DNA of 64,000 nucleotides from a virus, in the IMG/VR virus record IMGVR_UViG_3300044638_006750, positions 62,001 to 126,000 of that record; one strand, 5' to 3'. The notes beneath the pieces were generated by a model. The model was not told the origin of the DNA, ran no database searches, and saw only the letters and a list, made by a program, of their open reading frames with translations. Positions 2,020-22,675 of the stretch are shown one piece after another (within the stretch, counting starts at the first letter, position 1; each line of letters begins with the position of its first letter). Made by a program: the position numbers and the translations under genes.

Positions 2020-5000
2020 ATGGCTGGATTTAATTTAACCGCTCAGTTAAATATAGTTGGACCCAATAATCTTAAACCAGTCATATCTAATCTGCGTAAA
2101 CAGCTGAGTAGTGCTGGTGGTAGCATTACTCTAAATATTAATCCTAATATATCTACTTCTGTTAATAATTTAAATAAGTCATTACAGTCTTTGGATAGTA
2201 CATTAAAAAGCATCAATGCTTCTGCCTCTTCTGTCGCAGCATCTTTGAGACAAATAGGATCAGCAGCAGGTACGGTTAATATAAAATCTGTCCCTAAGGA
2301 TATCGCAGCAGTAACACAACAATCTCAAAAGCTACAACAGCAACAGTCACAAACAGCTGTCGCAACAAAAGCATCAACAGATTCTATGGTAGAATTTGGA
2401 AAGCAGTCTGCTTTAGCTATTCGCAGATTTGCTGCTTTTACATTAGTTACTGGGATTATTTATAAGGTTACAAGCGCGTTTGGAAATGCTTCCGCAGAAT
2501 TTATTAAATTCAATCAACAGATGGTACAACTATCTCAGGTTACTGGATCATCCCTACAAAATTTGGCTGGGCTAGAAAGAACCATTACGTCTTTATCAAC
2601 CAGTCTAGGTGTTTCTTCTAGTTCTTTGATAGATGTATCGAGTACCCTAGCGCAAGCAGGCTTATCTGCGCAAGAAACCGAAGAAGCATTATCTGCTCTT
2701 GCCAAGACCACCCTAGCTCCTTCGTTCGGGAATTTAAACAATACCGTAGAAGGTAGTATTGCTCTTATGCGACAGTTTGCGATTTCTACAGGACAACTCG
2801 AATCTGCACTAGGTTCGATAAACACAGTAGCTGCTAAATTTGCAGTAGAAGCAGATGATATTATTACGGCAATTCAGCGTACCGGTGGTGTGTTCGCCGC
2901 GTCTAGTAAAGGAGTAGCAGAAGGCACTGAGGCTCTGAATCAATTTATAGCAATTTTTACTAGTGTTAGAGCAACTACTCGTGAAAGCGCCGAAACGATT
3001 GCTACTGGCTTGAGAACAATTTTTACCAGAATACAAAGAAGAGATACAATAGAGCTATTAAAACAGTATGGTATACAATTAACAGATTTAGAAGGTAAAT
3101 TTGTTGGTCCTTATGAAGCTGTAAAAAGATTGAGTCAGGGTTTGGCTGGTTTAGATACAAGAGATGTCAGATTTTCCTCTATCATAGAAGAGCTTGGTGG
3201 GTTTCGTCAAGTAGGTAAAGTTATTCCATTATTACAACAATTTACTGTTGCTGAAAGAGCCCTAATGGTTGCTCAGAGAGGACAAGGGTCTCTGACCTCC
3301 GATGCTGCAAAAGCACAGCAAGCTTTAGCTATACAGATGGCAAAGGTACAAGAAGAATTTGTTGCGATGGTTCGTAAAATTGGTAGTTCTAATGAATTTC
3401 AGACAATGGTAAAGATGGCTTTAAATTTAGCTAGTGCCTTTATTCAGGTGGCTGATTCAGCTAAATATGCTTTACCAGCAATTACCGCTTTATTAGCTGT
3501 TAAGGGTACTATTGGAGCATTTAGGTTTGCCTCTGGTTTTGCAAGTGGCATGAGAAGAGGTGGAGGTGCTGCTGGATTAGGAGAAAGATTAAGCGGTGCT
3601 CCAAGAGGTTATGCTCAAGGTGGACAAATACCAGTTGCATTAGAACCAGGAGAGATGGTTTTCGTTGGAGAGTCTGCTCGTAGAGCAGGATATGGTAATC
3701 TAAGAAGATTGAACAGAGCCGGTGATCGTCCTAATCCAAGAGTAGCTTTAAATCGTGCCTCCGGAGGAGGCATATTTATGGTTCCTGGTTCTGGAAGAGG
3801 AGACACATTTAAGACTAATCTACCAGAAGGTTCTTTTGTTATAAAAAGAAAATCGGTTAGAGCAGTTGGTGCAGATAATATTGCTCAGATGGCTGCTACC
3901 GGTGGACAAATTAGACAAAATTTTGCCAGAGGAAGTTCCGGAGGACTATCGGCTGCTCCTAGGTTAGCTAGTGCCGGCAAAACTGTGAGAGCACATGTAT
4001 CTACTCCTACATCTATGACCGAAGAGATGAGGCAACAAATTCTAGACTATTATACTAAATCTGGTAAAAAAATTCCTAAAAAATTCCAACCGTCATTACT
4101 TGGTTCGTCATCAGCAGAACTTATAGAAAATCTTACAATAGGGTTACCCTATAGATATAATGAAGCCCTTAAGAGAGGATCTAATTCTGTTATTCCTCTA
4201 AGAGATTTCATCAAAAGTTTCGACAGGCCAGACTTTTTGAGGTCGTTAGGCACAAGTGGCAGGCAAAAAAAACAGTCACTACCACAATTATCGAAAACCG
4301 ATGAAGCAGAATTAATTAGATTACTCAAAAAAGAAACGATAAGAAACTCCACAAGACTCACCAAAGATATTCCAGGTCTTGCAAAAGGCTCTAGGATTAT
4401 ATCCAGTGATACTCAATTACAAAGTTTATCTGGTATAATTAAAGAATTCTATAAGAAAAAACAGACAGCACTAGTAAGACCAGTCGAAATGATGAGCTTC
4501 TATAGTCATCAGGGCAGAACACAACACAGAGACTTTTTACCAACATCATTATCTGAGGTTTTATCTCAAGGATTGTCTAAAAGATATATGGGTGGCTTAA
4601 TTCAGAGGTTAAGCGGAGGTTCAGACAAACCTCTTCAGGGTATGGGGAGGTCACAATTATTGACTGAGGCTAGAAGACTAGGAGTGAATTATGGAAATAT
4701 TGTCTCTTGGTCAGAGTTAGGGAAAAAAGGAGACATAGGAGCACAAGCTCGTTCTAGACTTATTGCAAAACTAGAAGAAGCTAGAATGCTTAGAAAAACT
4801 TCTCAAGCAGCAACATCTGCAAGAGCAAAAAGAACCAATGTTGCAGTTATAGGCGCTATGGCACCTCCCGGAGTTAGAGGTAGTAGCAGTGAAGTTATTA
4901 TTCCTGGTGCGAGAGATAGAAAAACAGGAAAAAGAACACAAGACACTCCAGCTACTCTTCATATAGGTGCTTTAGAGGGTAAAACAGCAGCTAGAGTTAC

Positions 5001-8000
5001 TGCTGTTATTAGAAATCAGACAGCCAGAATAACTCAAAAGGTTATGAAAATTATAGCTCAAGAAGCAAAAATGATTTTGCCAAACGATAATATGGCAAAG
5101 CTTAAAAGAAAACCTATGCATTCTGGTATTGCAGGAGGTTTATTAGAACAAGCTATTTTAGGTTTGATGGGTATAGACAAACCTATGGGCTCTATAGATT
5201 TAGGAGCATCTGGTCTCTCGCCAGAACTAGCCAATGTTTTTGGTATACCGTCTGCATCGGGCGTGCCAACAGATATTACATATGGAGGAGAAAAGGGGAG
5301 AACACTAGAAGAAGCAGCTAAGAGAAAAGCAGTAGGTAAGAGTAGAAACGCCAAAGGACAGAGAACATCTAGTCAGATAGGTAGGGGTTTAGCTGCTATT
5401 AGGGCTTCAAAAGCCATCGGAGGGATTGTACAAAGATTGGCAAATGGAGGAATCACCAGATCTGGTAAATTATCTAGGTCAACTTTCAAACTAATTCCTA
5501 ATGAGAAAGGTATTGGGCCAAGCCCGTTTGCATCAGGGCCAGTAGCCCAACCATTAGACTATAATGCATTAGAGAGATCTGGATTATCAATGGGCTTATC
5601 TCGTCCAATGATAACAAAAGCTATACAAGATGCTAAAATGCTTGGTATTAGTCCAGAAGAAAATATTAGAAAAATAGCATCTGAGGCCCAGTCTAAAAGA
5701 AGACCTGGTTTTACACACAGTACTGATTCTAGATCTATTTTATCTATGCTAAGAAAATCTGGTGGTCCAGTTAATTATGAAGGACCAGCCATGTTTTTTG
5801 CCAAGGGAGGCTCTGTAAAACCTGCTGTTCGCAATGTAGGTTGGATTGACAGTGATTTTCTGAGAAATAGTCCAAAAGCTAAGGCCGAGATGGATAAGCT
5901 CGGTATGAATGTAGATGAATATAAAAGATTTTTAACAGAAGAATCAATTAAAGCTAGAAAATCTGGATCAGTATCGAGATTAACAACGGTGGTCGGTTCT
6001 CCCGGTAGTGGCAAAAGTTCTTTTGCTGAGGGTAATCAAAGAACATCGGTAGCCGATAATGCTAGACTTAGAAAGACACATAGGTTTCCTATAGAAACAC
6101 CAGAAGATGTAGCCAAAGCGAACTCGATAATAGACACAGCGGCCTCTGTTTCTCCAGATAGATTGGTCGATTTGAATCAGTCAGACAGGATCGTTGCATT
6201 ATCTAGTAGCACAAAAGAAGAACAGAAAATATTAAGAAGGCAGTTAAGACATAGAACAGCTACAGGAGATAAACAATACGGTAGAACTCATACTATTACA
6301 GCTCAAGATAGTGGTGAAACTGAAGCGATGCTTCAAATGGGCTTAAGAGACAAAAAGAAATTAGTTACTCTGGGCCTTTTACCCAATTTCAAGAAAAGAA
6401 TTAAAAGACAGAACGAACTACCACTAGTACGAGAAGAACAGGTTAGTCTTGGATTTGGTAGTTTTTCTCCACCCACCAAAGCAGGCCATGATCAGGGCTT
6501 GATGTCCAATGCACAATATAAAAAGCTTGTTCTTGTTGGTCCGAATGAACCTGTTGGGGCCGACCCTCATTCCGCTCGTACAGCACTATTACCACAAGAT
6601 GTTAGACATAGATTGGCTACGAAGGCGTTTCCAGATGCATATGTGAGCAAGAAAACCTCAGGATTTGCTATACCACATGTTTTTGATGTTGGTACTGATC
6701 CAGAAACTGGCAGAAGACTATTTATTCGTAGAGCAAAGGGTAGTGAGGCTTTAGTAGCTGGAAAAGATGAGAAGTCACTCAAAAAATATGAAGAAGCTGG
6801 CTTTGGGGTTAGAGAAGTACCCAGAGACCCAAATGGAGAAAGCGGTACCGCAGCTAGAGAAAGAATATTACGAGGAGATTTTACTGGTTTCCATCCAGAA
6901 GTAGAAAAAGATTTAAGATCTAAAGCCACACAACTCTCTAATAGACAAGAAATATTGCCAAGAATTATTGAGAAAACACAAGAGAGAACTACTAAACAAG
7001 TATCCGAGATTGATAAATCTCTAAGTTCATATCCTTCAAGAATAACAGAGAAGATCAGACAAGAACAACCGGATATGGTTGCGGCTGTAGAATCTTTAAG
7101 AGCTAAAAAAACATCTATTAAAAGTAAAGCTGGTTCTAGACCTCATACAGTTTTAGCTAGACTAGCTAGAAGATATCCAGAAAGATATGGATTGGCACAA
7201 GGAGGTATGCCCCCGAAACCCCAAAAACAATTTGGTAAAATAGGACTAAGATCATCTGGTAAAGAAATAACAGCTTTTTATTTTAAAAATAATGTCAGAG
7301 AAGGATTTGTCACAGCTCATGAGATAGAAAAAGGTATTTGGAATATAGGATTGAGCAAAGCTACTAAAGGTTATGGTCCGAGACTTTACGATGCGGTTAT
7401 GGAAGCTGTAACAGCCAGAGGAGGGGTGTTAACCGCTCATAGAGGGAAGGTGAGTGGTCACGCTAAGAAAGTTTGGGATGTATATGCAAATGAAAGATCC
7501 AAGCCAGATAATAAATATGGTTCTCAGGTATCAAAAATTTCACTAGATTCCAAACACCATACATTAAGTCAAGACCCAAATGATTCTCTTAATTATGGAT
7601 ATCAACAACAGCCAAATATTATCAAGGGTCCAGATATTGTTGATATGAATGACCAAAAATATGATCGTTTTTTACAACAAATGCAGTTTGAGTTTTTAAG
7701 AGCTAATGGAGGAGGTGTCCAACGATCAGTTAGGGGTAATGTAAGACCAATTAAAAAACACTCAATGATTAAACCACAATTACAAAACAATGAACTATCT
7801 ACACTACAATCTCAAATTAATGATCTAGAGTCTAGAAGACAAGCTTTAGCTACTCATACAAAAACTGGATTTTTTGGAGGTAAAAGCAATCCATATCAAA
7901 GAGAAATATATGATTTAGAAGATGAAATAGCAAGATTATCACAAAGACGCTATCTATTATCTCAGAAGAGTGCTCCAACACCCACAGTACTAGCACAGCC

Positions 8001-11000
8001 CAGCGTGATCGCTAGATCCAAACCACAAGCAGTTGTTCCTGTAGCTAGGCCAAAAACAATAATGCCTCAACAGAGACAAAACGTTACTGCCTCATCTCGT
8101 CCTGGTTCAGTCACTATTATGCTGACAAAACAACAAAAATTGGAAATGCGTCAGACCATAGATAGACTTAATAAACAGATAGAACAAGCTAATAACACTA
8201 TAGCCACTTTGAAAAGTCATGATCGAAAACCAGGATTTATTGGTAAATTAACTGGTCAATCGACTAGAAATCCTTATCAAAATGAAATATGGGAAGCAGA
8301 AGCTGAGCAAAGTAGAGCACAAAATGAAAAACGTAAACTACTAGAATTGTATGGAGATCAACTAAATACATATACTGGATTTGCTGCTGGTGGTCATGTT
8401 ATGGCCATGTTGACTCCTGGAGAGGCAGTAATTCCTCCTCCTGAAACTAATCGTATTGGATTATCTACTTTAAGGCGTATGAATTTTGCCGATAAAAATG
8501 GAATGGGTAGAAGCAAATATGCCAAGGGTGGCAATATTGGTATAGTGCCGGGTTCTGGAGACTCAGATTCTTATGGGCCAGTAGCTCTTCCGGTTGGGTC
8601 TTTTGTTATTAGAAAAAGAGCAACAGCAGCCTTGGGGTTGGCCAAGTATTCCAGCGGCGGAGATGTTAAGAAATTTGCTACTGGAGGGTCAACCACAGTA
8701 TCTACATCTCAAACAAATTCTCGTATGCTTGACGTTAGGTCAGCAGGTGGTGTTGATCTTGGTAGCGTATTTGGTACTTCATCTATTGGTAAATTATTAG
8801 ATATAATTAAACCACAACTAGATAGTTTTGGAAATATGATAGATCGTACAACCAAAAGTTTTGGAAATTTGAAACCCGATGTTGTTCAGCAGTTATTTTA
8901 TGAGTATGCCAATGAACTAAAGAGTGGAGTATCTTCAGCAGAAGCACTACGTAATGCAGAAAATAAACTTGCTTCAAATCTTGCAGATTCGGTAGTTTCT
9001 AAAAAGGGTGTTAATGTAAGCAATTCTGGAGTAGAGCTTACATCTCCTATAAATACAAAAAATAAAGATAGTGTTAATGTTCGTAGTGCTGGTGGTATTG
9101 CTATTGGTAACATATCTACTACTAAGGGCCCAGCTGTATTAGATAGTGCTATACAACAACTTAAGCCTCATTTAGATAAGTTCGGATGGATGATAGATAA
9201 GACTACAGCAGAATTTGGAACACTCGATACCAAGGTCGTAAATCAAGCTTATCAGAAATATATTACAGCTATTCGTAACGGAACATCACAATTAGAGGCG
9301 TTGGAAGAAGCTACTCGCACAGTTAAGAGTAGTTCAACTATGGAACAAATGAGAAGAGATGATATCAAGACATCTCGGAGAAAATCACAGTCTGTATTAG
9401 GATCTATAATGGATCCTGTAGGAGCCTTGAATAGATATGGAAGATCTAGGGTATCTCTTGGTCAAGAAAAATTAGATAATCTTACTTTTAGTAAGCAGTC
9501 TCAACAAGTTTTATCTAGTGGGAAAGGTAATTTGGTAGGAGCAGCTACCAATCAAGTATTAAATAATTTAACTAAAGGACTTGGTAATGCATCATTAGCT
9601 GTTTCTGGTTTTATATCTGCTATTGGCAGAGGGGGTGGAGTAGGTAGTGCCATATCATTAATGAAGGCTGGATTTGCCCGCATGGCTGGGAACACTACAG
9701 GACTAGCCGCTAAATTTATTGGATTACAAAGAACTATTGTGGCTACAGAAGGTAAATTAAAGGGTATGACCAAAGGTCAAGCTCAACAAGCTCTTAAAGA
9801 AGGGAAAATTACTAAAGCCGAATATAAAGAGGCTTTTGGACTTAGAGGTAAAAGTAGAGCTGTATACCACAGTGCCAAAGATCAACCACCAGCGTATAAT
9901 GCTAAATTTGAACAAGAAACAAAAACGGCGCGAGCAAAAGCTAAAAAACAAGCTTTACAAGACGCTGGTTTTGGAAGACAAGCGGACACATATATCAAAG
10001 ACGGAAAAACCTATGTAAAAAGAGATGCATCCGGTAAGGCAGTAAATACACAAGTAGGAGCTAAGACACAAGCTATTATGGAAGCTAGGGATATGGCCAC
10101 GGTTAACCCTGCGTCATACGGACCCCAAAGCTCCAATGCTATTTTAGCCACTAGAAGAGCAGGGGCTACTGCTCAAGACCAGATGAGAGCAATAGTTCAT
10201 GGAGGTGGTGGCGGACCTCCTCCAAAAGGGCCAAGAGGAGCTAAAACAGCTGGAGCCGTTAAAGCACCAACCAATGTACCAGATCAACCAGGACAAAGAG
10301 GTGGTGGTGGCGGTGGTATGGGCGCATATATGGCCGAAATGGGATTATCCATGGCTGGTAGCGCTATCGCAGATCAATATGCTAAATCATTAGGAGGAGA
10401 AAAGACTTTAGCCGGTAGACAAGCGGCTAATTATGGCGGTAGTATTGTTGCTGGTGCTAGTACAGGCATGATGATGGGAAGTATGATTGGTTCAGTTGTC
10501 CCTGGTCTTGGCACCGTAGTTGGAGGAGCTATTGGAGCAGGAGTTGGAGGTCTAGCTGGTGCAGGATACGCCGCTCTTAATAGTAAAGAAGTAGCAGCAC
10601 AGTTTAGTAGTGAGCAAAGACAGGATAAAATAGGTAGACACACCACTAAACTTAATGAACAATTAACGACAATGAATAATAGAGATGTGTCTGTAGAAAC
10701 CCGCAATAGAGCCAGGGCAGAATCCAGACAAACTCTAATAAAAATGAATGAACTTTCATCTGAAGAACAAAAATCAGGAATGGAAAATGTTGGATATTTA
10801 TCTTATCAAGCAAGATCCACAGCTTCAGAAAGAGCTAATTCTGCTCAAGGAGTAGCGGACGCAAATTTATCTTCTATAGAAACGGAGATGCAGACTACTG
10901 GCAAAACGCTGGCTCAGGTTAGACAGTCTATGGATCCTGCACAGTGGGCTGCTATGACAAATACCATAGCTGATTCTGATCAAGCATATCAAGAACAAAA

Positions 11001-14000
11001 AGAAAAATTAAGAGGGAATAGTGCCGAACTAGAAAAAGAAAAACAAAAAGCCGTTGAGCGTCAAATGGCTTTCTTAAAGGTAAAAGAAGAAGCTATTCAA
11101 GCAGCCAGAGAAAATGCTAGACTAAATAAAGCGATGCAGAAAGTTACTGTATCGTTTGAAAAAATGGCAGATGCTATGAGCAATGCCGCAGCTAGAGCAA
11201 ATCAAGTTATGAAGAATGGACAGATAGGAATAGAATCCATAGACAATCCATTAGCTGCCAATCAAGTTGGTCAAATTTCTAAATCTGCCGATATAATCTC
11301 CAACCCTGAAGCATATTCGATTAAAGAAGTTGAGGACGCTGCTCGTCAATATGCTGGTGTAGCAGGTTCTAGCTCTGAACAAATGGTTCAAGCTGCTGTA
11401 TTACCTCGCAAATTAGAACAAAGTTTTGGCTCCGCTATGGTTGAAGCAAGAAGTTCTGGCAAGAATGATGAAGAGACCAGAAGCTCTGTTAAGTCCGCTG
11501 TTATGAATACTGTGAAAGCTGCATTTGGAGAAAATATAGGCAATGACATGCAAAAGAAGATAGATGACTTCCTAAACAGCAAGGCGGCATCTGGAGAATT
11601 ACAAAATATAGATTTTAACGATCTGTTAAAAGAAATTCCTGGTCTTGCAGACAAGATGGCCTCCTCTAGCAAAGTTATGAAAGCACTACAAGATCAGGCT
11701 CAATCTGCTGCCAATGCTATTGCAATGATGGGTGATGCTGCCCAGAAAACAGCATCTAAAGGCCAAGATATCAGAAATGCTAGAGCAGATACTTTTTCAA
11801 CTATTGCTAATAGTACCTTGGCATTTAGAAGAGGTACTGGAGAGAAAATTTCTTGGCAGGCTGATGCTGGAGTAAGAACACAAGCTCGTGCAATAAGATT
11901 AGGTACTACAGCTGATGTTGCAGCCAGTCCACAAAAAATGTTAGGAAGATACCTTGCTCTTCAACAGGGTGCCGACGCAGCCTCTAAGAGACAACAACAA
12001 GTGAATGAAGAACAAAAGGGGGCAATGCTTGCTGGAGGAGATCAAACTCAGGGTGCTATAGATAAGATGCAACAGGCTGCCAATACCACAGCAGAATTTG
12101 CACAAGCTACAAAACAAGCTCGTGAAGAAATTTTAGGATTGCCGAATGATATTAAAGATAACATTAATGGTATCTTAAGTGAATTACAAGACGTAATGCA
12201 AGAAAGAAGCGCTAAAATCGGAGCAGCTAGTGGATTCATGGAGAAGATGTTAACATCTACTCCTAAAGACCTTAGAAAGATGGGCAACACATTCAATAAT
12301 CTTAATCAAACTCTATCTGGGAAAGGTGTTAGTTTCGAAGAGTCATATTCTGCCAAAACTGCGTATGATCAAGTCAGGAATCAGGGCGGGACTCATATGC
12401 AAGCCCAAAGAGCCGCCCAAGAAGCATACGCTCAGGAAAGCAGTGATACGATTAGTATGGCTAAAGAATTAGCTCCTCTCCTAGGAGCCGTTGATCCAGA
12501 CGCACAAAATAAGATGATGGCTAGTGTTTATGAAAATATGTTTGCTGCTAGAGGCATGGATCCTTCGCAAATGAAGGTTGGCGATAAGAGCATGAAAGAC
12601 TACTTGGATATGATGAAGAAAGGAGCTAAAGAAGATCCAAAAGTTAAAGCTTTGAACGATGCTTTAGCAGCACAACAAGCAGCTCTTGTACAAGCTAATG
12701 CTGCTATTGAAGCAATTTATACTAAAGATCAGGCAGACATACAACAAAAAACAGGAGAAGTTATTCTAAATGCTATGCAACAAGGCGCAGAAGCTGTAAA
12801 AAAAGCTATGGAAGAAGCTAAAGTTGCTGGTATAAGCCCTCCGGGAGAAGCAGGAGCAGCTAACTCTCCACAAGCTCAGGCTCAAGCCCTTAATGAAGAA
12901 CAAACTCAACAAAGAAAGGATCAGAACCTCAATGATATAGAAGCAGCCAAAAAAGTTATTAATGATCCGGCAGCTTCTAAGGAAGACAAAGAAAAAGCTG
13001 AGAAAGTTATTGCAGAAAAAGAGCAAGAGAATGCGGTCCTTACAGGTGGACTAAGCGGCACAAGAGGACTATCGTCTGCTGAAAATATGACATTTAAAGA
13101 ACATGCTCTTCCGGGAGAAACTCCTGAAGATTTTACGAAGAGAAGGCGCAAATTGATGGATATGACAGGTCAATCTACTCCACAACAAGTGTCACAAAAT
13201 CCAACAACTCCACAACAAAACGCTGCTGGAAATGCGGCAGCAACACCTTCACCAACTACCACATCATCTACCCCATCATCCACATCTCCTGCTGGTTCAA
13301 CTTCTCCAGCCGGTCAGGCAGCAGCATCTCAAGCTGCTACTCCACAACCACCAGTAAGAGCAATTACTAGTCAGCAAAGAGAAGACGAGATTGTTCTACA
13401 ACAAGGAGAGATGGCACAAAACGAGAAAATTATTAACGATCTATCTTCTAGCGAAGAAGACAAAGAAAATGCTAGACTTGAGATACAAGGATCACAACAT
13501 AAAATAGCGATGTTACAAGGAAAAAGCAAGGAAGAAATAGCAGAAAGTGTTTATGGAACTAAATATGAAGACATGTCTCCTGAACAGAAAGAATACTTAG
13601 ATCTACAACATTCAGCTTACTCAAATAACTATAGTAGACAATATGGTAGTTTAGCTCCGCAGACCCCAGCTCCAACTTCTCAAGCCGCAAGTAATCAGGC
13701 TGCGGCACCAGCACCCAATACCGGCACTGGTCCATCTTCTCCTCCGTCGTTTGGTCAAACCATGCAAGCTGCTATGACAGCAGGACAGAATAATAATGTT
13801 GCTTATAGATCTCAAGATGGTTTATCAGGTGCTACTCGTAGTGTGATTGCAAATCTGCCTCCGCAAGTGCAAGGTATGGTTACTCAAGCCGCACAAAGCA
13901 ATCCAGCTTTAGCAACAGCAATACAAAATGGAGACCTAGCAGCTGCACAAGCAGCATTACCACCAGAAGCAATGGCTCAGATACAACAAGTAATGGCAGG

Positions 14001-14874
14001 GGCTGGTAATGCGGCATTAGCATCCGGTTCTATGCAAGCATTAAATACTGAAAGACAAGTTTCTGCCGCTCAAGGAGCAATGGCTACTGGTTCTGTTATG
14101 ACCAAACCCTCTACTAGTACTGGTCAAAAGACACCACAATGGCAGCCCTCAAGTGGTCCAATGGGATTAAATAATGTACATCAAGAGGCGTATCTCAGAG
14201 GTATGACCACGCAAGAAGTAAATTATGAAAGACAACAACAATATTTGAGTAGCTTGAATCCCGAGACTAGAGATATAGAAAAAAGGAAACTTGGTAAAAG
14301 ATTATTAAAACCAAGCGAACGACAAGAAGCTGCCATACAAGCACAGAAAGATAGTGCAGCTGCCGCGGCGGCACAACAGCCAGGGGTAGTTCCAGCCCCT
14401 GTAGGAAGTGCTCCACAAATGCCACAAACTGTACCCGGTCAAAATACCAATGGTCAGATGGTGCCTCCAACCGCACCTGCTACTCAAGCCGGATATGTTA
14501 CTCCTCCATCAGAAGCTGGTTCTCCGGTTCCGGCTCCAAGACCAGCACAAAACGTACCCGGACAACAAAATCAAGGCGCTGGTGTATTACCCGGTATGGG
14601 CGGATTCGAAGCCTTTGCCAGCAAATTGGATACATTATTGACCAAATTAGGAGAGGTAAATATTCCTACGGAAATTAGACTTACAAGCGAAAGTATAGGA
14701 GTCAATGTCACATTAAATGGTGCGGAAGTTATGAATAAGATGCCAGAACAAATTAGAGGTCAAATAGTACAAGAAGTTGTAGCAAAACTTCGAGAATACG
14801 ACAAGGGAACATCTGGAGAAGGTGCAGCACTAAGTCCAAAAATTGGTGGACAATCTACGAATACAGACGTATAA
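2020..14874 (+). CDS. giant tail tape measure protein with embedded enzyme-like domains (4284 aa)
   Basis: The N-terminal 450 residues are typical of a TP901-type tape measure core: coiled coil (about 50-125), a hydrophobic stretch (about 131-152), then an Ala/Ser-rich helical region with 'FNQQMVQLSQVTGSS' and repeated SL..A motifs. Gly-Gly plus PGE/VPGSG modules occur at about 528-635 and again at 2120-2216. Between them lie a Walker A motif (GSPGSGKSS, 1326-1334), a nucleotidylyltransferase-like domain (GSFSPPTKAGH ending at 1490; SGTAAR at 1608-1613) and a GNAT-like segment (KGYGP, 1783-1787). Later parts are Ala/Gln-rich helices, a Gly-rich membrane-like hairpin (about 2808-2855), disordered Ala/Pro/Gln linkers, and a C-terminal helical domain. 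It is far longer than typical tape measures. It spans the tail lumen and is expelled at infection; delivery of the enzyme domains to the host is inference. Confidence 0.95.
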   Translation: MAGFNLTAQLNIVGPNNLKPVISNLRKQLSSAGGSITLNINPNISTSVNNLNKSLQSLDSTLKSINASASSVAASLRQIGSAAGTVNIKSVPKDIAAVTQQSQKLQQQQSQTAVATKASTDSMVEFGKQSALAIRRFAAFTLVTGIIYKVTSAFGNASAEFIKFNQQMVQLSQVTGSSLQNLAGLERTITSLSTSLGVSSSSLIDVSSTLAQAGLSAQETEEALSALAKTTLAPSFGNLNNTVEGSIALMRQFAISTGQLESALGSINTVAAKFAVEADDIITAIQRTGGVFAASSKGVAEGTEALNQFIAIFTSVRATTRESAETIATGLRTIFTRIQRRDTIELLKQYGIQLTDLEGKFVGPYEAVKRLSQGLAGLDTRDVRFSSIIEELGGFRQVGKVIPLLQQFTVAERALMVAQRGQGSLTSDAAKAQQALAIQMAKVQEEFVAMVRKIGSSNEFQTMVKMALNLASAFIQVADSAKYALPAITALLAVKGTIGAFRFASGFASGMRRGGGAAGLGERLSGAPRGYAQGGQIPVALEPGEMVFVGESARRAGYGNLRRLNRAGDRPNPRVALNRASGGGIFMVPGSGRGDTFKTNLPEGSFVIKRKSVRAVGADNIAQMAATGGQIRQNFARGSSGGLSAAPRLASAGKTVRAHVSTPTSMTEEMRQQILDYYTKSGKKIPKKFQPSLLGSSSAELIENLTIGLPYRYNEALKRGSNSVIPLRDFIKSFDRPDFLRSLGTSGRQKKQSLPQLSKTDEAELIRLLKKETIRNSTRLTKDIPGLAKGSRIISSDTQLQSLSGIIKEFYKKKQTALVRPVEMMSFYSHQGRTQHRDFLPTSLSEVLSQGLSKRYMGGLIQRLSGGSDKPLQGMGRSQLLTEARRLGVNYGNIVSWSELGKKGDIGAQARSRLIAKLEEARMLRKTSQAATSARAKRTNVAVIGAMAPPGVRGSSSEVIIPGARDRKTGKRTQDTPATLHIGALEGKTAARVTAVIRNQTARITQKVMKIIAQEAKMILPNDNMAKLKRKPMHSGIAGGLLEQAILGLMGIDKPMGSIDLGASGLSPELANVFGIPSASGVPTDITYGGEKGRTLEEAAKRKAVGKSRNAKGQRTSSQIGRGLAAIRASKAIGGIVQRLANGGITRSGKLSRSTFKLIPNEKGIGPSPFASGPVAQPLDYNALERSGLSMGLSRPMITKAIQDAKMLGISPEENIRKIASEAQSKRRPGFTHSTDSRSILSMLRKSGGPVNYEGPAMFFAKGGSVKPAVRNVGWIDSDFLRNSPKAKAEMDKLGMNVDEYKRFLTEESIKARKSGSVSRLTTVVGSPGSGKSSFAEGNQRTSVADNARLRKTHRFPIETPEDVAKANSIIDTAASVSPDRLVDLNQSDRIVALSSSTKEEQKILRRQLRHRTATGDKQYGRTHTITAQDSGETEAMLQMGLRDKKKLVTLGLLPNFKKRIKRQNELPLVREEQVSLGFGSFSPPTKAGHDQGLMSNAQYKKLVLVGPNEPVGADPHSARTALLPQDVRHRLATKAFPDAYVSKKTSGFAIPHVFDVGTDPETGRRLFIRRAKGSEALVAGKDEKSLKKYEEAGFGVREVPRDPNGESGTAARERILRGDFTGFHPEVEKDLRSKATQLSNRQEILPRIIEKTQERTTKQVSEIDKSLSSYPSRITEKIRQEQPDMVAAVESLRAKKTSIKSKAGSRPHTVLARLARRYPERYGLAQGGMPPKPQKQFGKIGLRSSGKEITAFYFKNNVREGFVTAHEIEKGIWNIGLSKATKGYGPRLYDAVMEAVTARGGVLTAHRGKVSGHAKKVWDVYANERSKPDNKYGSQVSKISLDSKHHTLSQDPNDSLNYGYQQQPNIIKGPDIVDMNDQKYDRFLQQMQFEFLRANGGGVQRSVRGNVRPIKKHSMIKPQLQNNELSTLQSQINDLESRRQALATHTKTGFFGGKSNPYQREIYDLEDEIARLSQRRYLLSQKSAPTPTVLAQPSVIARSKPQAVVPVARPKTIMPQQRQNVTASSRPGSVTIMLTKQQKLEMRQTIDRLNKQIEQANNTIATLKSHDRKPGFIGKLTGQSTRNPYQNEIWEAEAEQSRAQNEKRKLLELYGDQLNTYTGFAAGGHVMAMLTPGEAVIPPPETNRIGLSTLRRMNFADKNGMGRSKYAKGGNIGIVPGSGDSDSYGPVALPVGSFVIRKRATAALGLAKYSSGGDVKKFATGGSTTVSTSQTNSRMLDVRSAGGVDLGSVFGTSSIGKLLDIIKPQLDSFGNMIDRTTKSFGNLKPDVVQQLFYEYANELKSGVSSAEALRNAENKLASNLADSVVSKKGVNVSNSGVELTSPINTKNKDSVNVRSAGGIAIGNISTTKGPAVLDSAIQQLKPHLDKFGWMIDKTTAEFGTLDTKVVNQAYQKYITAIRNGTSQLEALEEATRTVKSSSTMEQMRRDDIKTSRRKSQSVLGSIMDPVGALNRYGRSRVSLGQEKLDNLTFSKQSQQVLSSGKGNLVGAATNQVLNNLTKGLGNASLAVSGFISAIGRGGGVGSAISLMKAGFARMAGNTTGLAAKFIGLQRTIVATEGKLKGMTKGQAQQALKEGKITKAEYKEAFGLRGKSRAVYHSAKDQPPAYNAKFEQETKTARAKAKKQALQDAGFGRQADTYIKDGKTYVKRDASGKAVNTQVGAKTQAIMEARDMATVNPASYGPQSSNAILATRRAGATAQDQMRAIVHGGGGGPPPKGPRGAKTAGAVKAPTNVPDQPGQRGGGGGGMGAYMAEMGLSMAGSAIADQYAKSLGGEKTLAGRQAANYGGSIVAGASTGMMMGSMIGSVVPGLGTVVGGAIGAGVGGLAGAGYAALNSKEVAAQFSSEQRQDKIGRHTTKLNEQLTTMNNRDVSVETRNRARAESRQTLIKMNELSSEEQKSGMENVGYLSYQARSTASERANSAQGVADANLSSIETEMQTTGKTLAQVRQSMDPAQWAAMTNTIADSDQAYQEQKEKLRGNSAELEKEKQKAVERQMAFLKVKEEAIQAARENARLNKAMQKVTVSFEKMADAMSNAAARANQVMKNGQIGIESIDNPLAANQVGQISKSADIISNPEAYSIKEVEDAARQYAGVAGSSSEQMVQAAVLPRKLEQSFGSAMVEARSSGKNDEETRSSVKSAVMNTVKAAFGENIGNDMQKKIDDFLNSKAASGELQNIDFNDLLKEIPGLADKMASSSKVMKALQDQAQSAANAIAMMGDAAQKTASKGQDIRNARADTFSTIANSTLAFRRGTGEKISWQADAGVRTQARAIRLGTTADVAASPQKMLGRYLALQQGADAASKRQQQVNEEQKGAMLAGGDQTQGAIDKMQQAANTTAEFAQATKQAREEILGLPNDIKDNINGILSELQDVMQERSAKIGAASGFMEKMLTSTPKDLRKMGNTFNNLNQTLSGKGVSFEESYSAKTAYDQVRNQGGTHMQAQRAAQEAYAQESSDTISMAKELAPLLGAVDPDAQNKMMASVYENMFAARGMDPSQMKVGDKSMKDYLDMMKKGAKEDPKVKALNDALAAQQAALVQANAAIEAIYTKDQADIQQKTGEVILNAMQQGAEAVKKAMEEAKVAGISPPGEAGAANSPQAQAQALNEEQTQQRKDQNLNDIEAAKKVINDPAASKEDKEKAEKVIAEKEQENAVLTGGLSGTRGLSSAENMTFKEHALPGETPEDFTKRRRKLMDMTGQSTPQQVSQNPTTPQQNAAGNAAATPSPTTTSSTPSSTSPAGSTSPAGQAAASQAATPQPPVRAITSQQREDEIVLQQGEMAQNEKIINDLSSSEEDKENARLEIQGSQHKIAMLQGKSKEEIAESVYGTKYEDMSPEQKEYLDLQHSAYSNNYSRQYGSLAPQTPAPTSQAASNQAAAPAPNTGTGPSSPPSFGQTMQAAMTAGQNNNVAYRSQDGLSGATRSVIANLPPQVQGMVTQAAQSNPALATAIQNGDLAAAQAALPPEAMAQIQQVMAGAGNAALASGSMQALNTERQVSAAQGAMATGSVMTKPSTSTGQKTPQWQPSSGPMGLNNVHQEAYLRGMTTQEVNYERQQQYLSSLNPETRDIEKRKLGKRLLKPSERQEAAIQAQKDSAAAAAAQQPGVVPAPVGSAPQMPQTVPGQNTNGQMVPPTAPATQAGYVTPPSEAGSPVPAPRPAQNVPGQQNQGAGVLPGMGGFEAFASKLDTLLTKLGEVNIPTEIRLTSESIGVNVTLNGAEVMNKMPEQIRGQIVQEVVAKLREYDKGTSGEGAALSPKIGGQSTNTDV
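3604..3906 (+). repeat. tape measure PGE/GG module, copy 1
   Basis: Encodes about residues 529-629 of the tape measure. The order is YAQGG, LEPGEMVF, a Leu/Arg stretch (GNLRRLN), a second GG, VPGSGRGD, LPEGSFVIKRK, ending in TGG. The same order recurs at 8380-8668. Such 'xxGGxV...PGE' stretches are common in tape measures of many phages. Here the two copies bracket about 1490 residues that contain the enzyme-like domains. Confidence 0.75.
5776..7000 (+). other. P-loop plus nucleotidylyltransferase-like domains inside the tape measure
   Basis: Starts after an FAKGG linker (residues 1260-1264). A P-loop GSPGSGKSS (1326-1334) follows the hydrophobic beta strand LTTVV, as in P-loop kinases, with a possible Walker B-like strand (DRIVAL) downstream. 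Then comes GFGSFSPPTKAGHDQG (from 1478), matching the G-x-F-x-P-P-T-x-G-H motif of nucleotidylyltransferases but with one extra residue before GH. This is followed by the strand KKLVLVG, an HSARTALL..DVRHRLATKAFPD segment, and SGTAARERILRGDF (1608-1621), matching the SGTxxR...GDF motif of phage nucleotidylyltransferases. Fold assignment is fairly secure. Substrate and activity are unknown, and the extra residue in the HxGH-type motif may affect catalysis. Confidence 0.72.
7201..7570 (+). other. GNAT-like acetyltransferase-fold segment inside the tape measure
   Basis: Lies directly after an LAQGG linker (residues 1725-1729). A beta strand (IWNIGLSKA) leads into KGYGPRLYDAVMEAVTARGG (from 1783) and then LTAHRGKVSGHAKKVWDVY. 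This resembles the acetyl-CoA-binding turn and helix of the short GNAT-like domains seen in phage multidomain proteins, which also carry the S..A..VW..Y segment. No acceptor substrate can be inferred. It may be a binding or structural relic, not an active enzyme. Confidence 0.6.
8380..8668 (+). repeat. tape measure PGE/GG module, copy 2
   Basis: Encodes about residues 2121-2216: FAAGG, LTPGEAVI, a GLSTLRRMN stretch, YAKGG, VPGSGDSD, LPVGSFVIRKR, SSGG. The order of motifs is the same as in copy 1 at 3604-3906. Confidence 0.75.
8719..9333 (+). repeat. tandem duplicated helical domain in the tape measure
   Basis: Two successive blocks begin with VRSAGG and share a pattern: a short linker, then IKPQLDSFGNMIDRTT in the first and LKPHLDKFGWMIDKTT in the second, then SFG/EFG and a Gln/Tyr-rich helix with A.....A.E..EA. 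Each is about 100 residues. The copies differ widely in DNA sequence, so the duplication is old. Confidence 0.7.
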
Positions 14875-14886
14875 AGAAAGAAAAAT

Positions 14887-17475
14887 ATGAACAATATTAT
14901 AAAACTATTTGATAATGTAGCCAGTCTTTTTAGCTATACAAATGGCACCATTGTTCCATCTGGTCCCACACAAGGATATAACCCCATAGGATCAGGATAT
15001 ATTGGTAGTAGAGTTTCTTATTTAGCCAGAAATATATTTAATAATGGGGATGTGGAATTCGAGTCTGGTATCGGAACCATAGTATCTAGCGGTACTGGAT
15101 TGGCCATACAAAGACAAACTATCGCCAGTTCTTCTAACAACAATAATATTGTATCGTTTAGCACAGCCGGCACAAAAGCAGTATATATTGTTCCAAACGA
15201 GATAAATAATAAAAATGCTTTCAATAACTTCGTAAATACATCTGGATCATTCAGTATAGACTCATACAGAGCCACATATGTAATAGATTTATCTTCTGTA
15301 GATAGTAGCGGCACTCTTCCTCCGTCATTATCAGAAAATGCTGGACTAATTATCGATTTTAAAACCCAAGACACAAATAATCACTCACTAACAATATTTC
15401 CATCTGGCTCTCAAACAATAGATGAATTATCCTCATATATTATTGATGAAAATGATTATGTTCAATTTTTATCAACAGGATCAGGCTGGATATCTCTTGC
15501 GCAAAATATTATAGTTCAATCAGGAACACCACACGGACAATCATACTCATTACAAATTAATGATGGCAATGGTGGTTTTGAAGGATCTAATTTATTTACC
15601 AATAATAATCATGATTTATTAATTGGAGATAAATCCACATATACATCAATACTAAGAGCTTCTGGAAATACTGAATTTAATTTGAATAATGGCTCATATA
15701 ATTTTATTGTAAATGGAAAAGCTGGTAAAAATTTAGTATTCGATTCAGATGGTAAGCTAGGTATAAATATGCCAGCTAGCTATGCTCCTCAGGTTCCACT
15801 ACACATTCTACAAACAGCTTGCGCAGAAAGTATCAGAGTAGAGAATAGACATTCCTCAAATCCATCAGTTTTCACTTTGTATCATAGACCGACTACTGTT
15901 CCTTCTGTTGGGTCATCCCCATCTATTATTAATTTAGCTGGTAAAAATGATAGCGCTAATCAAGTTAATTATGCCGTTATCAAATCAAAAATTTTGGATG
16001 TATCATCTGCTGGATCTCAGGGTGCAATAGCTGTAGACGTTAATGATAATGGAAGTCCAAGTAATATTTTAGATATTAGTACTTCCTATACAAAAATTGG
16101 ATATAACAATACGGCATCAGATTCTAGCGTAATTGTTGGAAGAAATAATAATCTATCAGGAACAAATAATATACTATTTGGTCAAAATATTATTTATTCA
16201 GGTATTAATTCTACTGTTATTGGAAATAACAATAATCATTTATTGCTAACGGACACTAATATACTCATAAAAAATAGTGGATATCCAGAGTTAGTGGTAT
16301 CTGAAGGACGCTTAGGAGTAGGTAAAAATCCCTCATCTTCATTAGATATAAACGGAGATATTAGAACATCTGGTATCGTTTCGGATGAATATAAATTCAG
16401 CACAACATCCACAGATGGTCAACTGGTTTTAACTAGTGGACAAAATATTTATCCTAGTAATTATAATATTAATAATCTTATTGTTGGAAATAATAGTGGG
16501 CTATTAATTAAAAATGGAGATGTTACAGCTTCGGGTTTAGATAATATCTATATGACCCCAAGCGGTTTAACGATCAATAATGATGTATTTATCCCTAGTC
16601 TAACGAATAATTATCTACTAACGCTATCAAATTCTCAATTAAGCAATTATACTGCTATTGAATTAAATGCTTCAAATATTAAATTTGATAAAAATATTAA
16701 AGTAAATACAGATGTAGAATATACTATCAATAGCAACGAACCAGATATCTTTACAGATGGTTATGTGGTAACTAGTGGCTTGGTGATAGATAGAGCCTCA
16801 ACAATGCCATCGGGCGCTATGCTTATGCATATGGGTAATGGCGTCGCTCAATGGAAGACTGTCACAGGAAGCGACTTAATATTTAGTAATTCAGAATTAT
16901 CATGGAACAAATATGCTATTAGAAATGCTACTATAAATAGTTCTACACAAATTACTATAACAAGCAGTATTAGTGCAGAAGAGTTTGTTACTGGTGATAC
17001 TGTGGTAGTCATTAAAGACAATACAACTTATTATACTACAATTACTAGTCAAAGCGTAGTAGCAGGACAAACAGTATTGATTGTATCTGCTATGGGCGTA
17101 TCTTCAGGATCGGCCACAATCTACTCCGCGACTAGAGGAGGATATCTACTATCATCTGTAACAAATGGAGCAACTACTAATAGGTTTAGTATAAGACCAG
17201 GGACACCATCTATTTTTAATACTGGCAAAGCAGAAATAGATTTTGGTATATATGGAGCTGCAACAAATTATGCTCTTTATATTAACGCTAATTATTTAGA
17301 TAATAGCGAAGATGAGTCTCAGGTTGTTATTAATGGATCGATACCATACTCTGTTGGAGAACAGCAATATGCTGCTCTAACCGTTAGAGGATACTTATAT
17401 GCAGAACAACTTAGAGTGAGCGGAGATGTGGATATAGACTGTGGAGTTATAGTATTTACAGGAGTACCGTCATAA
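14887..17475 (+). CDS. tail fibre-like structural protein (862 aa)
   Basis: The protein is rich in Ser, Asn, Thr and Ile with many short beta repeats, typical of a trimeric fibre. Two stretches have the fibre signature 'LGI/VG ... P ... L.I': one near residues 291-305 (LGINMPASYAPQVPLHIL) and one at 476-496 (LGVGKNPSSSLDINGDIR). Sequences like these often precede an intramolecular chaperone, but no peptidase S74-type end is present. The protein finishes with a short beta segment (YLYAEQLRVSGDVDID). There is no signal peptide. It starts 12 bases after the tape measure stop with only a weak purine-rich site, and its TAA overlaps the next ATG (TAATG), so translation is coupled. Position after the tape measure fits a distal tail or fibre component; receptor binding is inference. 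Confidence 0.8.
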   Translation: MNNIIKLFDNVASLFSYTNGTIVPSGPTQGYNPIGSGYIGSRVSYLARNIFNNGDVEFESGIGTIVSSGTGLAIQRQTIASSSNNNNIVSFSTAGTKAVYIVPNEINNKNAFNNFVNTSGSFSIDSYRATYVIDLSSVDSSGTLPPSLSENAGLIIDFKTQDTNNHSLTIFPSGSQTIDELSSYIIDENDYVQFLSTGSGWISLAQNIIVQSGTPHGQSYSLQINDGNGGFEGSNLFTNNNHDLLIGDKSTYTSILRASGNTEFNLNNGSYNFIVNGKAGKNLVFDSDGKLGINMPASYAPQVPLHILQTACAESIRVENRHSSNPSVFTLYHRPTTVPSVGSSPSIINLAGKNDSANQVNYAVIKSKILDVSSAGSQGAIAVDVNDNGSPSNILDISTSYTKIGYNNTASDSSVIVGRNNNLSGTNNILFGQNIIYSGINSTVIGNNNNHLLLTDTNILIKNSGYPELVVSEGRLGVGKNPSSSLDINGDIRTSGIVSDEYKFSTTSTDGQLVLTSGQNIYPSNYNINNLIVGNNSGLLIKNGDVTASGLDNIYMTPSGLTINNDVFIPSLTNNYLLTLSNSQLSNYTAIELNASNIKFDKNIKVNTDVEYTINSNEPDIFTDGYVVTSGLVIDRASTMPSGAMLMHMGNGVAQWKTVTGSDLIFSNSELSWNKYAIRNATINSSTQITITSSISAEEFVTGDTVVVIKDNTTYYTTITSQSVVAGQTVLIVSAMGVSSGSATIYSATRGGYLLSSVTNGATTNRFSIRPGTPSIFNTGKAEIDFGIYGAATNYALYINANYLDNSEDESQVVINGSIPYSVGEQQYAALTVRGYLYAEQLRVSGDVDIDCGVIVFTGVPS

Positions 17476-20374: not shown

Positions 20375-22675
20375 ATGTTAAGTTTACAATTTACAAAATC
20401 AATTATACAAACTAATAATCCAGATGTCTGCTCATTAGGAGTAGAAATCTTTTTAAATATTAGTGGTTTAATACCTGGACACAGTTATTCTCTAAATTTT
20501 GTCAAGATCACCGAAGATGGTATTGCTAGTTTTGATCCTCCTTCTGAAACTTTTGTCGCAAATTCTACAGCGATTGGTAATTTTCTGGTTAAAGTAGTAT
20601 GTCAGGATGCTCGATACTATATTTTCAATGCTTCTTTAGTCGATTTGTCTACAGAAGAAACCGTAGAAGATAACATTACTCTTGACTGCGGAGGCATACC
20701 TCCAGGTATCACTCCAACTCCAACCAATACTCCCACACCTACAAATACCCCAAGTGTTACTCCTACTACTACTCCGACCACAACAGTAACGTCTACAGTT
20801 ACTAATACTCCGACGAATACCGGAACGCCTACCTCCACGCCGACACCAACTGCTACCAATACTCAAACGCCAACCAATACTGTCACCAATACAGCAACCC
20901 CTTCACAAACACCAACTAATACTCCAACTCCAACACAGACACCAACGATTAGTATTACTCCTACACAGACAACAACAAATACTCCAACTATATCTGTGAG
21001 CCCCACAAATACACAAACACCAACAAATACTGCTACTCCTACACAAACGCCAACTAATAGTCCGACTAATACAACTACCCCAACGAATAGTGCAACTCCT
21101 ACTAACACCAAAACTCCCACAACCACACCAACAAATACCTCAACACCCACTCAATCTAATACTCCAACTATTACAGCATCTCAAACTGCTACTCCAACGA
21201 CAACCTTAACTCCTACAAATACAACATCTATTACTCCAACACCTAGTCCAACCAATTATCCTTTGGACGAATGTATTGGTACGGATAAACCAGCCTACTA
21301 TCTAGGATGCTGCACAAACAATAAGCTGATTTCTCCACACCACAGGATTCAGATTGTATTTGTTAACCTAAATATTGGAAATAGATACTTTTTTGACATT
21401 GTTGGAACAGATAATGTTAAAGTATATAATACTGAAGATAATTTTGTGGCTCAATATTATGAATATCTTACTACAGCATTTATTGCGGTTAAGACGGAAT
21501 TTTGTGAATTAAATTACTTAACTATCAATTTGTATGATGAAAATAGAAACTTGGTCAAGACAAGATCGGTCTCAGTATCTTGCGAGTCTGACCAGAATCA
21601 AAATGTAAATGATTGTCAAGGATCTTCTGTATTCTTTATAAATGAACCAGAAAATAGGAATATTTGTTTCTATTTTGATGATGAATGTCGTAAAATTATC
21701 AATGTTACTCCTACTCCTTCACCAACAAATACTGCTACTCCCACGACTACTCCAACATCGACTCCAACTCAAACATCGACTCCAACTCCAACGAATACAC
21801 AGACCCCAACTAATACTATAACTCCCAGTACTACCACAACCAATACTCCTACTCCAAGCGTAACCAGTACAAACACTCCAACCCCAACAACTACTACAAC
21901 CACAACTCCAACGGCAACTGTTACCAGTAGCCCCACAGCAACTAATACTCCTACTCCAAGTTTGGTTAATAGATGCGCTGCGAGAAGTTATTTACTGGTA
22001 AAAGTCGCAACAACAGAAAATTTAGGATATACTAATCTATCTGGTAGTTTTAGATCAGCAATTATGACTGGATTTAGAACTCCATTAACTATTGATGGTA
22101 TAATATTAAATGTTGGTGATTTAGTTTTAGTCAAGAATAATATAAGTAGTACTTGGACAGGATCAGATGTTTATACCGTACAGAATGTAGGAAGTCAATT
22201 CGCACCATGGGTTTTAATATCCTATGTTCCAACCTCTGGAGATTGGTGTACAACATTCTCTGACAATATAGGTGGTACAGAAGACAAGTATTGTCCTGTT
22301 TTTGTGCAACAAGGAAATACTAACGGTAAGACAGAATGGTTACTACCAACTAATTTCTCCACACAGGGCGCGATTCCATCAGCTTTAAGGTGTGTAGACG
22401 ATGTAATTATTAGACAGGTCAGATTAGCTACAACATCTAATATAACACTATCTGGTACTCCAGTTATAGATGGTGTTCAAACGGCAGAAAACGATAGAAT
22501 TCTAGTCAAAGATCAAGATGATCCTATACAAAATGGTATATATATTGTAGCAGGCAATAATACCGCATGGTATAGATCTGGTGATGTTAGAGATAATTTA
22601 AGCTTAATTACAGAACTTAGAGTATATGTGTCACAGGGTATCGTTAATAAAGACACTGTTTGGACTATAGGTTAA
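20375..22675 (+). CDS. adhesin-like protein: two Ig-like domains, two TPT linkers, fibre-type C-terminus (766 aa)
   Basis: Order: Cys-framed domain (1-112), TPT linker (113-296), an Ig-like domain with CC and VSVSCES (about 297-444), a second TPT linker (445-529), and a C-terminal head (530-766). The head holds two related modules. The second is clear: [38 protein letters not shown] and a final V..G..N.DTVWTI (from 682). This is a well-known module of phage tail fibres and bacterial surface proteins. The first is degenerate ([22 protein letters not shown]). The start follows TAAGGGGAATAA, a strong site. The C-terminal head is the best candidate for receptor contact; that is inference. Confidence 0.87.
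20711..21262 (+). repeat. Thr-Pro-Asn (TPT) linker tract, 184 codons
   Basis: The longest linker in the window. Units such as TPTNTPT and TPTQTPT alternate irregularly with T-I-S and N-T-T, with free use of synonymous Pro and Thr codons. Confidence 0.9.
21707..21961 (+). repeat. Thr-Pro-Asn (TPT) linker tract
   Basis: About 85 codons of TPT/NTPT units joining the second Ig-like domain to the C-terminal head of the same protein. Confidence 0.9.

Follow-up and report, generated by a model that had tools for sequence, protein, structure and literature searches.

Can the tape measure protein (TMP) of a phage, the ruler of its tail, also carry several unrelated enzymes, and where would these enzymes act? 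The question is raised by a gene located in a 64,000-nucleotide stretch (the window; positions 62,001 to 126,000) of the 232,683-base IMG/VR virus record IMGVR_UViG_3300044638_006750. Matches to terminase and portal proteins upstream of the window identify the source as a tailed phage. The TMP is encoded by a single uninterrupted reading frame, and its identity is supported both by a Pfam domain and by two PHROG tape-measure families. A core region at aa ~105-480 is common to ~70 TMPs of uncultured phages. The gene contains the following features (window coordinates):

2020..14874, + strand: TMP open reading frame (4,284 aa, internal stops absent)
2581..3198, + strand: TMP core, PhageMin_Tail (aa 188-393; Pfam E-value 1.1e-22)
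3604..3891, + strand: first Gly-rich PGE-type repeat pair R1, opening the cargo section (aa 529-624; repeat profile)
3892..8370, + strand: cargo section between R1 and R2 (aa 625-2117; bracketing common in the family)
5125..5289, + strand: degenerate PD-(D/E)XK-like motif region (aa 1036-1090; motif alignment with ~20 relatives, (D/E)xK being retained in many of them)
5824..6396, + strand: P-loop domain, kinase-like (aa 1269-1459; Walker A in 15 of 15 homologs, AlphaFold2 pLDDT mostly >90, Foldseek matches to P-loop proteins)
6421..6927, + strand: HIGH-superfamily nucleotidyltransferase domain (aa 1468-1636; invariant TxGH and SGTxxR, Pfam matches in homologs, Foldseek match to 2qjo)
6928..7191, + strand: long helical extension ending the P-loop/nucleotidyltransferase module (aa 1637-1724; modelled secondary structure, conserved along with the module)
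7240..7644, + strand: GNAT-like domain (aa 1741-1875; Foldseek matches to 1yx0 YsnE and phage NAT_SF proteins, 25 aligned members)
8371..8502, + strand: second PGE-type repeat R2, closing the cargo section (aa 2118-2161; repeat profile)

Immediately 5' of the TMP, two overlapping open reading frames in different frames (716-1045 and 951-1928) resemble a tail-assembly chaperone pair, the second of which contains tandem LIDxxGR repeats. At 20375-22675, the C-terminal segment of a 766-aa gene product has matches among head-decoration and tail-fibre PHROGs.

The initial annotation reported four motifs in order within the TMP frame, and their positions are exact: GSPGSGKSS (aa 1326-1334), GSFSPPTKAGH (aa 1480-1490), SGTAARERILRGDF (aa 1608-1621) and KGYGPRLYD (aa 1783-1791). 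As patterns, they differ in how often they arise by chance. The P-loop expression turns up in 33% and SGTxxR in 13% of 5,000 shuffles of the TMP, and these two, taken singly, would be weak evidence; the G-x-F-x-P..TxGH pattern was found in none of 5,000 shuffled TMPs. The proposed P-loop, HIGH-type nucleotidyltransferase and GNAT-like folds are supported by profiles, a structure model and conservation. Our reading, to which we assign a probability of roughly 0.6, is that the TMP is a tail ruler with an exchangeable enzyme cargo, placed between the core and the remaining ruler and delivered with the tail.

Exchangeable modules between flanking repeats

Using the N-terminal part of the TMP as a query, we collected 80 related loci of uncultured phages. 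Profiles built from the first matches split the region of interest into two separable modules. Module A (~450-500 aa; ~aa 1260-1724 in the window) consists of the P-loop domain, the nucleotidyltransferase and the helical tail, while module B is the GNAT-like domain (~150-200 aa in relatives). The three domains of the initial annotation are all present, but their layout has to be revised: the first two constitute one conserved module and the third is a separate one. In relatives, modules A and B are found hundreds of residues apart, or one occurs alone. Among 49 distinct TMPs identified by the core alone, six contain module A, five contain module B, and two contain both.

The repeat that follows the TMP core has the form GG.VPGSGN.D.VPAxLTPGEFV...N; a second repeat, VPALxSNGEAYVPP or LTPGEFVINK, occurs hundreds to two thousand residues downstream. 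Such PGEFV-type repeats bracket modules A and B in 33 of 35 cases, the exceptions being locus L002, which has a divergent first repeat, and the truncated locus L025. The distance between the repeats is ~200-2,200 aa (204-2,138 aa in the set selected by the core).

The content of the section is variable. An ADP-ribosyltransferase domain (PF03496) is present in the cargo of seven relatives (best E-value 2.7e-15; one match scores 31.4 bits, the cutoff being 23.4), weaker Pfam matches include ART-PolyVal, SNase and AAA_33, and HAD-like (DFDxT) and PARP-like (YHGT) modules were assigned by eye from their motifs. For instance, the PF03496 domain belongs to the cargo of L005 (locus bases ~11270-13021), and the YHGT module, identified by eye, to that of L006 (~11276-14896). 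A further module, GNIEG..E...DFPxGLG...(D/E)VKRT, is found in the cargo of ~20 TMPs (e.g., L006, L049, L062, L094, L106 and L108) and corresponds to the PD-(D/E)XK-like region of the window, which has E1043, D1060 and D1085, and T1087 in place of the lysine. The lysine has been lost in several TMPs, including this one. For aa 640-1130, the upstream part of the cargo, the AlphaFold2 model reached a pLDDT of 61 and was set aside.

The TMP of the window and its close relative from L002 are 72% identical in the core and 61% identical at aa 2773-3715; the identity of the shared cargo is 39%, and the GNAT-like region of the window is unmatched in L002. This divergence, together with the varied cargo, indicates that the section changes in evolution as domains are gained, lost or diverge. 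Changes in length are restricted to the cargo in some pairs of TMPs (L098/L126 and L011/L019). A general constancy of TMP length outside the cargo was considered and rejected as an appearance produced by loci cut at their ends, since complete TMPs vary there too.

Both modules are under purifying selection in relatives, with dN/dS ratios of ~0.06-0.33 (NG86, pairs with >60% identity): 0.14-0.33 for module A and 0.06-0.26 for module B. No relatives of modules A and B were found in the isolated phages and prokaryote genomes searched, including two genome scans; the TMP core has only remote counterparts in isolated phages, nearly all of them in TMPs of Bacillus phages.

Folds and conserved residues of the two modules

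The window's own modules A and B have no significant Pfam, PHROG or PDB-sequence matches. An AlphaFold2 model of aa 1260-1920, built with 32 aligned segments of relatives, has a mean pLDDT of 86.5. With this three-domain chain as the Foldseek query, E-values are modest (~5e-3); the top two PDB matches are the GNAT protein YsnE (1yx0; probability 1.00, E-value 4.8e-3) and the NMN adenylyltransferase NadM (2qjo; probability 0.99, E-value 5.7e-3), and P-loop proteins rank lower. In the viral library, the model matches phage NMNAT and NAT_SF proteins, the latter with probabilities of 0.99-1.00. The P-loop domain has weak structural matches to shikimate kinase (probability 0.41) and MMAA (up to 0.84), and weak profile matches to kinases and Zeta toxin.

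The key residues of module A are invariant in 15 modules from independent contigs. All 15 retain the G, GK and S/T of the Walker A motif GxxxxGK[ST], the T, G and H of TxGH, and the second motif S[GA][TS]xxR of the ISSTxxR type. The initial annotation suggested that an extra residue in the HxGH-type motif marks altered chemistry. This suggestion is not upheld: spacing is canonical in 13 of the 15 homologs, and the insertion of one residue is limited to the window and L002.

The GNAT-like domain has no Pfam match. GYGPxLY is conserved across module B, and the Q/R of the Q/RxxGxG/A acyl-CoA loop is not conserved at the expected position. The copy in the window is devoid of a ~20-aa segment (LIDPKLYG..TWPP) that other GNAT-like domains conserve. 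Module B is akin to the WGPMLYD family of stand-alone phage proteins (hhalign probability 99.5%). These proteins of 207-241 aa (L128-L135) share the pattern WGPMLYDxAME ... DRxxVSxxAxxVW and belong to a family that is unnamed in the libraries searched.

The P-loop/nucleotidyltransferase unit would most likely make or modify an adenylylated small molecule in the host. Our lead guess is an NMN adenylylation similar to that of NadR or NadM, which together with the attached kinase could restore NAD or counter a NAD-depleting defence. The resemblance of the nucleotidyltransferase to NadM and NMNAT is structural, and the nearest sequence profiles include UPF0348, so that the NAD reading is just one option; we regard it as tentative, and other adenylyl transfer accounts for most of the remaining expectation. 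No NAPRTase, stand-alone NMNAT-type gene or CTP_transf_like match was found in the genome record.

An alternative to NAD chemistry places the enzyme nearer to a group related to UPF0348 and cytidyltransferases, which would adenylylate tRNA or another substrate. HIGH_NTase1_ass (PF16581) is the best-supported Pfam family of module A, matching 12 of the 15 homologs (best E-value 9.6e-8), compared with four for CTP_transf_like (PF01467; best 0.0042), and the best PDB sequence match of the module profile is the UPF0348 protein MJ0951 (E-value 1.6e-5). However, the likeness to PF16581 and MJ0951 resides mainly in the SGTxxR part, whereas the whole domain matches NadM and NMNAT in structure, and NadR characteristically has a P-loop partner. 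We hold this non-NAD variant to be possible, with considerable doubt.

Proposed delivery with the tail and its alternatives

Given its identity as a TMP, the protein is likely to be present in the virion. At infection, it would go down the tail, and its ruler part would line the DNA path across the membrane; in phage lambda, inner-membrane proteins are associated with the TMP at the time of injection (PMC13190303). Folded domains of 20-50 kDa suit the tail tube poorly and hence would have to refold or be released. We infer that the cargo passes through the tail, folds within the host cell ahead of phage gene expression, perhaps following cleavage at the Gly-rich repeats, and is catalytically active there, the GNAT-like domain putatively acylating a host protein. 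We see even odds that a large group of uncultured phages uses the TMP as a general delivery vehicle, in which case the ADP-ribosyltransferase, kinase-nucleotidyltransferase, GNAT, HAD and nuclease-like cargo would enter with the tail and act earlier than any phage gene.

TMPs are late products, made in several copies. As parts of such a structural polyprotein, the enzymes could already work ahead of packaging, modifying the TMP itself, tail proteins or nucleotide pools during virion assembly or in the producing cell instead of being delivered to the next host. We consider this role unlikely: an enzyme that modifies pools would be oddly placed in a late structural protein, the ADP-ribosyltransferase domains found at the same site in relatives are typical of injected and conflict proteins (PMC5512222, PMC9503650), and the precedent of phage P23-45 works at injection (PMC10770324).

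The domains could also be catalytically dead folds with a new role as structural filler or in binding, for example as decoys for TMP-sensing defence or as adaptors to host membrane proteins. TMPs are indeed bound by host factors and defence proteins (PMC13190303), and the copies in the window have diverged, with the additional residue in TxGH, the truncated tail of the GNAT-like domain and the nuclease-like motif without its lysine. On the other hand, all 15 modules have kept the Walker A lysine and both nucleotidyltransferase motifs, TxGH and SGTxxR, and dN/dS is low; filler would lose its active-site residues, and their retention makes this reading improbable. An assembly or annotation artefact that misjoined enzyme genes to the TMP is refuted, since the same in-frame fusion recurs in varied arrangements on numerous independent contigs that come from different metagenomes.

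If enzyme delivery by the ruler is true, the tail would provide a second route, besides the capsid, for ready-made enzymes at the first moment of infection, and the cargo would help to explain the great length and variability of some TMPs. A pair of PGEFV-type repeats that follows the core and encloses the cargo could then serve as a sequence rule for finding unknown early host-takeover or counter-defence enzymes of uncultured phages, with a bearing on bacterial injection systems that use TMP-derived effectors.

Comparison with known systems

In the literature searched, coverage of which was incomplete, we found no report of uncultured phages whose TMPs hold exchangeable enzymes between flanking repeats. 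One close precedent is Thermus phage P23-45, in which a virion RNA polymerase forms part of the TMP (PMC10770324). In both cases a giant TMP and a catalytic enzyme share one polypeptide that acts as infection starts, which for the phage studied here is our inference. In contrast to the single RNA polymerase at the N-terminus of the P23-45 protein, the exchangeable section of the present TMP lies behind the core and contains smaller transferase- and kinase-like domains.

The comparison with polyvalent proteins of phages and plasmids, drawn in the initial annotation, is appropriate in kind, and the ADP-ribosyltransferase domains at the same site of sister TMPs strengthen it. Polyvalent proteins combine ADP-ribosyltransferase and GNAT domains (PMC5512222), and here, too, several unrelated enzyme- or effector-type domains occur in one chain of a virion-associated type. 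The difference is in the carrier, here a TMP (the word "tape" is absent from the text of PMC5512222), and in the nucleotidyltransferases, which are of the pol-beta type in the polyvalent proteins discussed there and of the HIGH type here. Contractile injection systems of bacteria have TMP-derived effectors, Tme and Sle1 (PMC11126660, an endonuclease; PMC13277306), which likewise combine a TMP-like protein with variable functional domains. Unlike the internal section of the phage ruler, these domains are C-terminal.

Fusions of a P-loop domain and a HIGH nucleotidyltransferase of the NadR type are known as separate genes in jumbo phages (PMC7824862). Module A shares with NadR the coupling of these two domains, and its best structural match for the nucleotidyltransferase is NadM (PMC7824862, PMC9503650); it differs in having only remote sequence similarity, in being embedded in a TMP, and in its domain order, since NadR has the nucleotidyltransferase followed by the P-loop kinase and in module A the order is reversed. 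An IDxD motif located ahead of the P-loop (window 5824-5890, aa 1269-1290) is invariant in all 15 modules. It is similar in look to the DxD of gluconokinase-type kinases, which is normally C-terminal to the P-loop. This placement may reflect a circular permutation.
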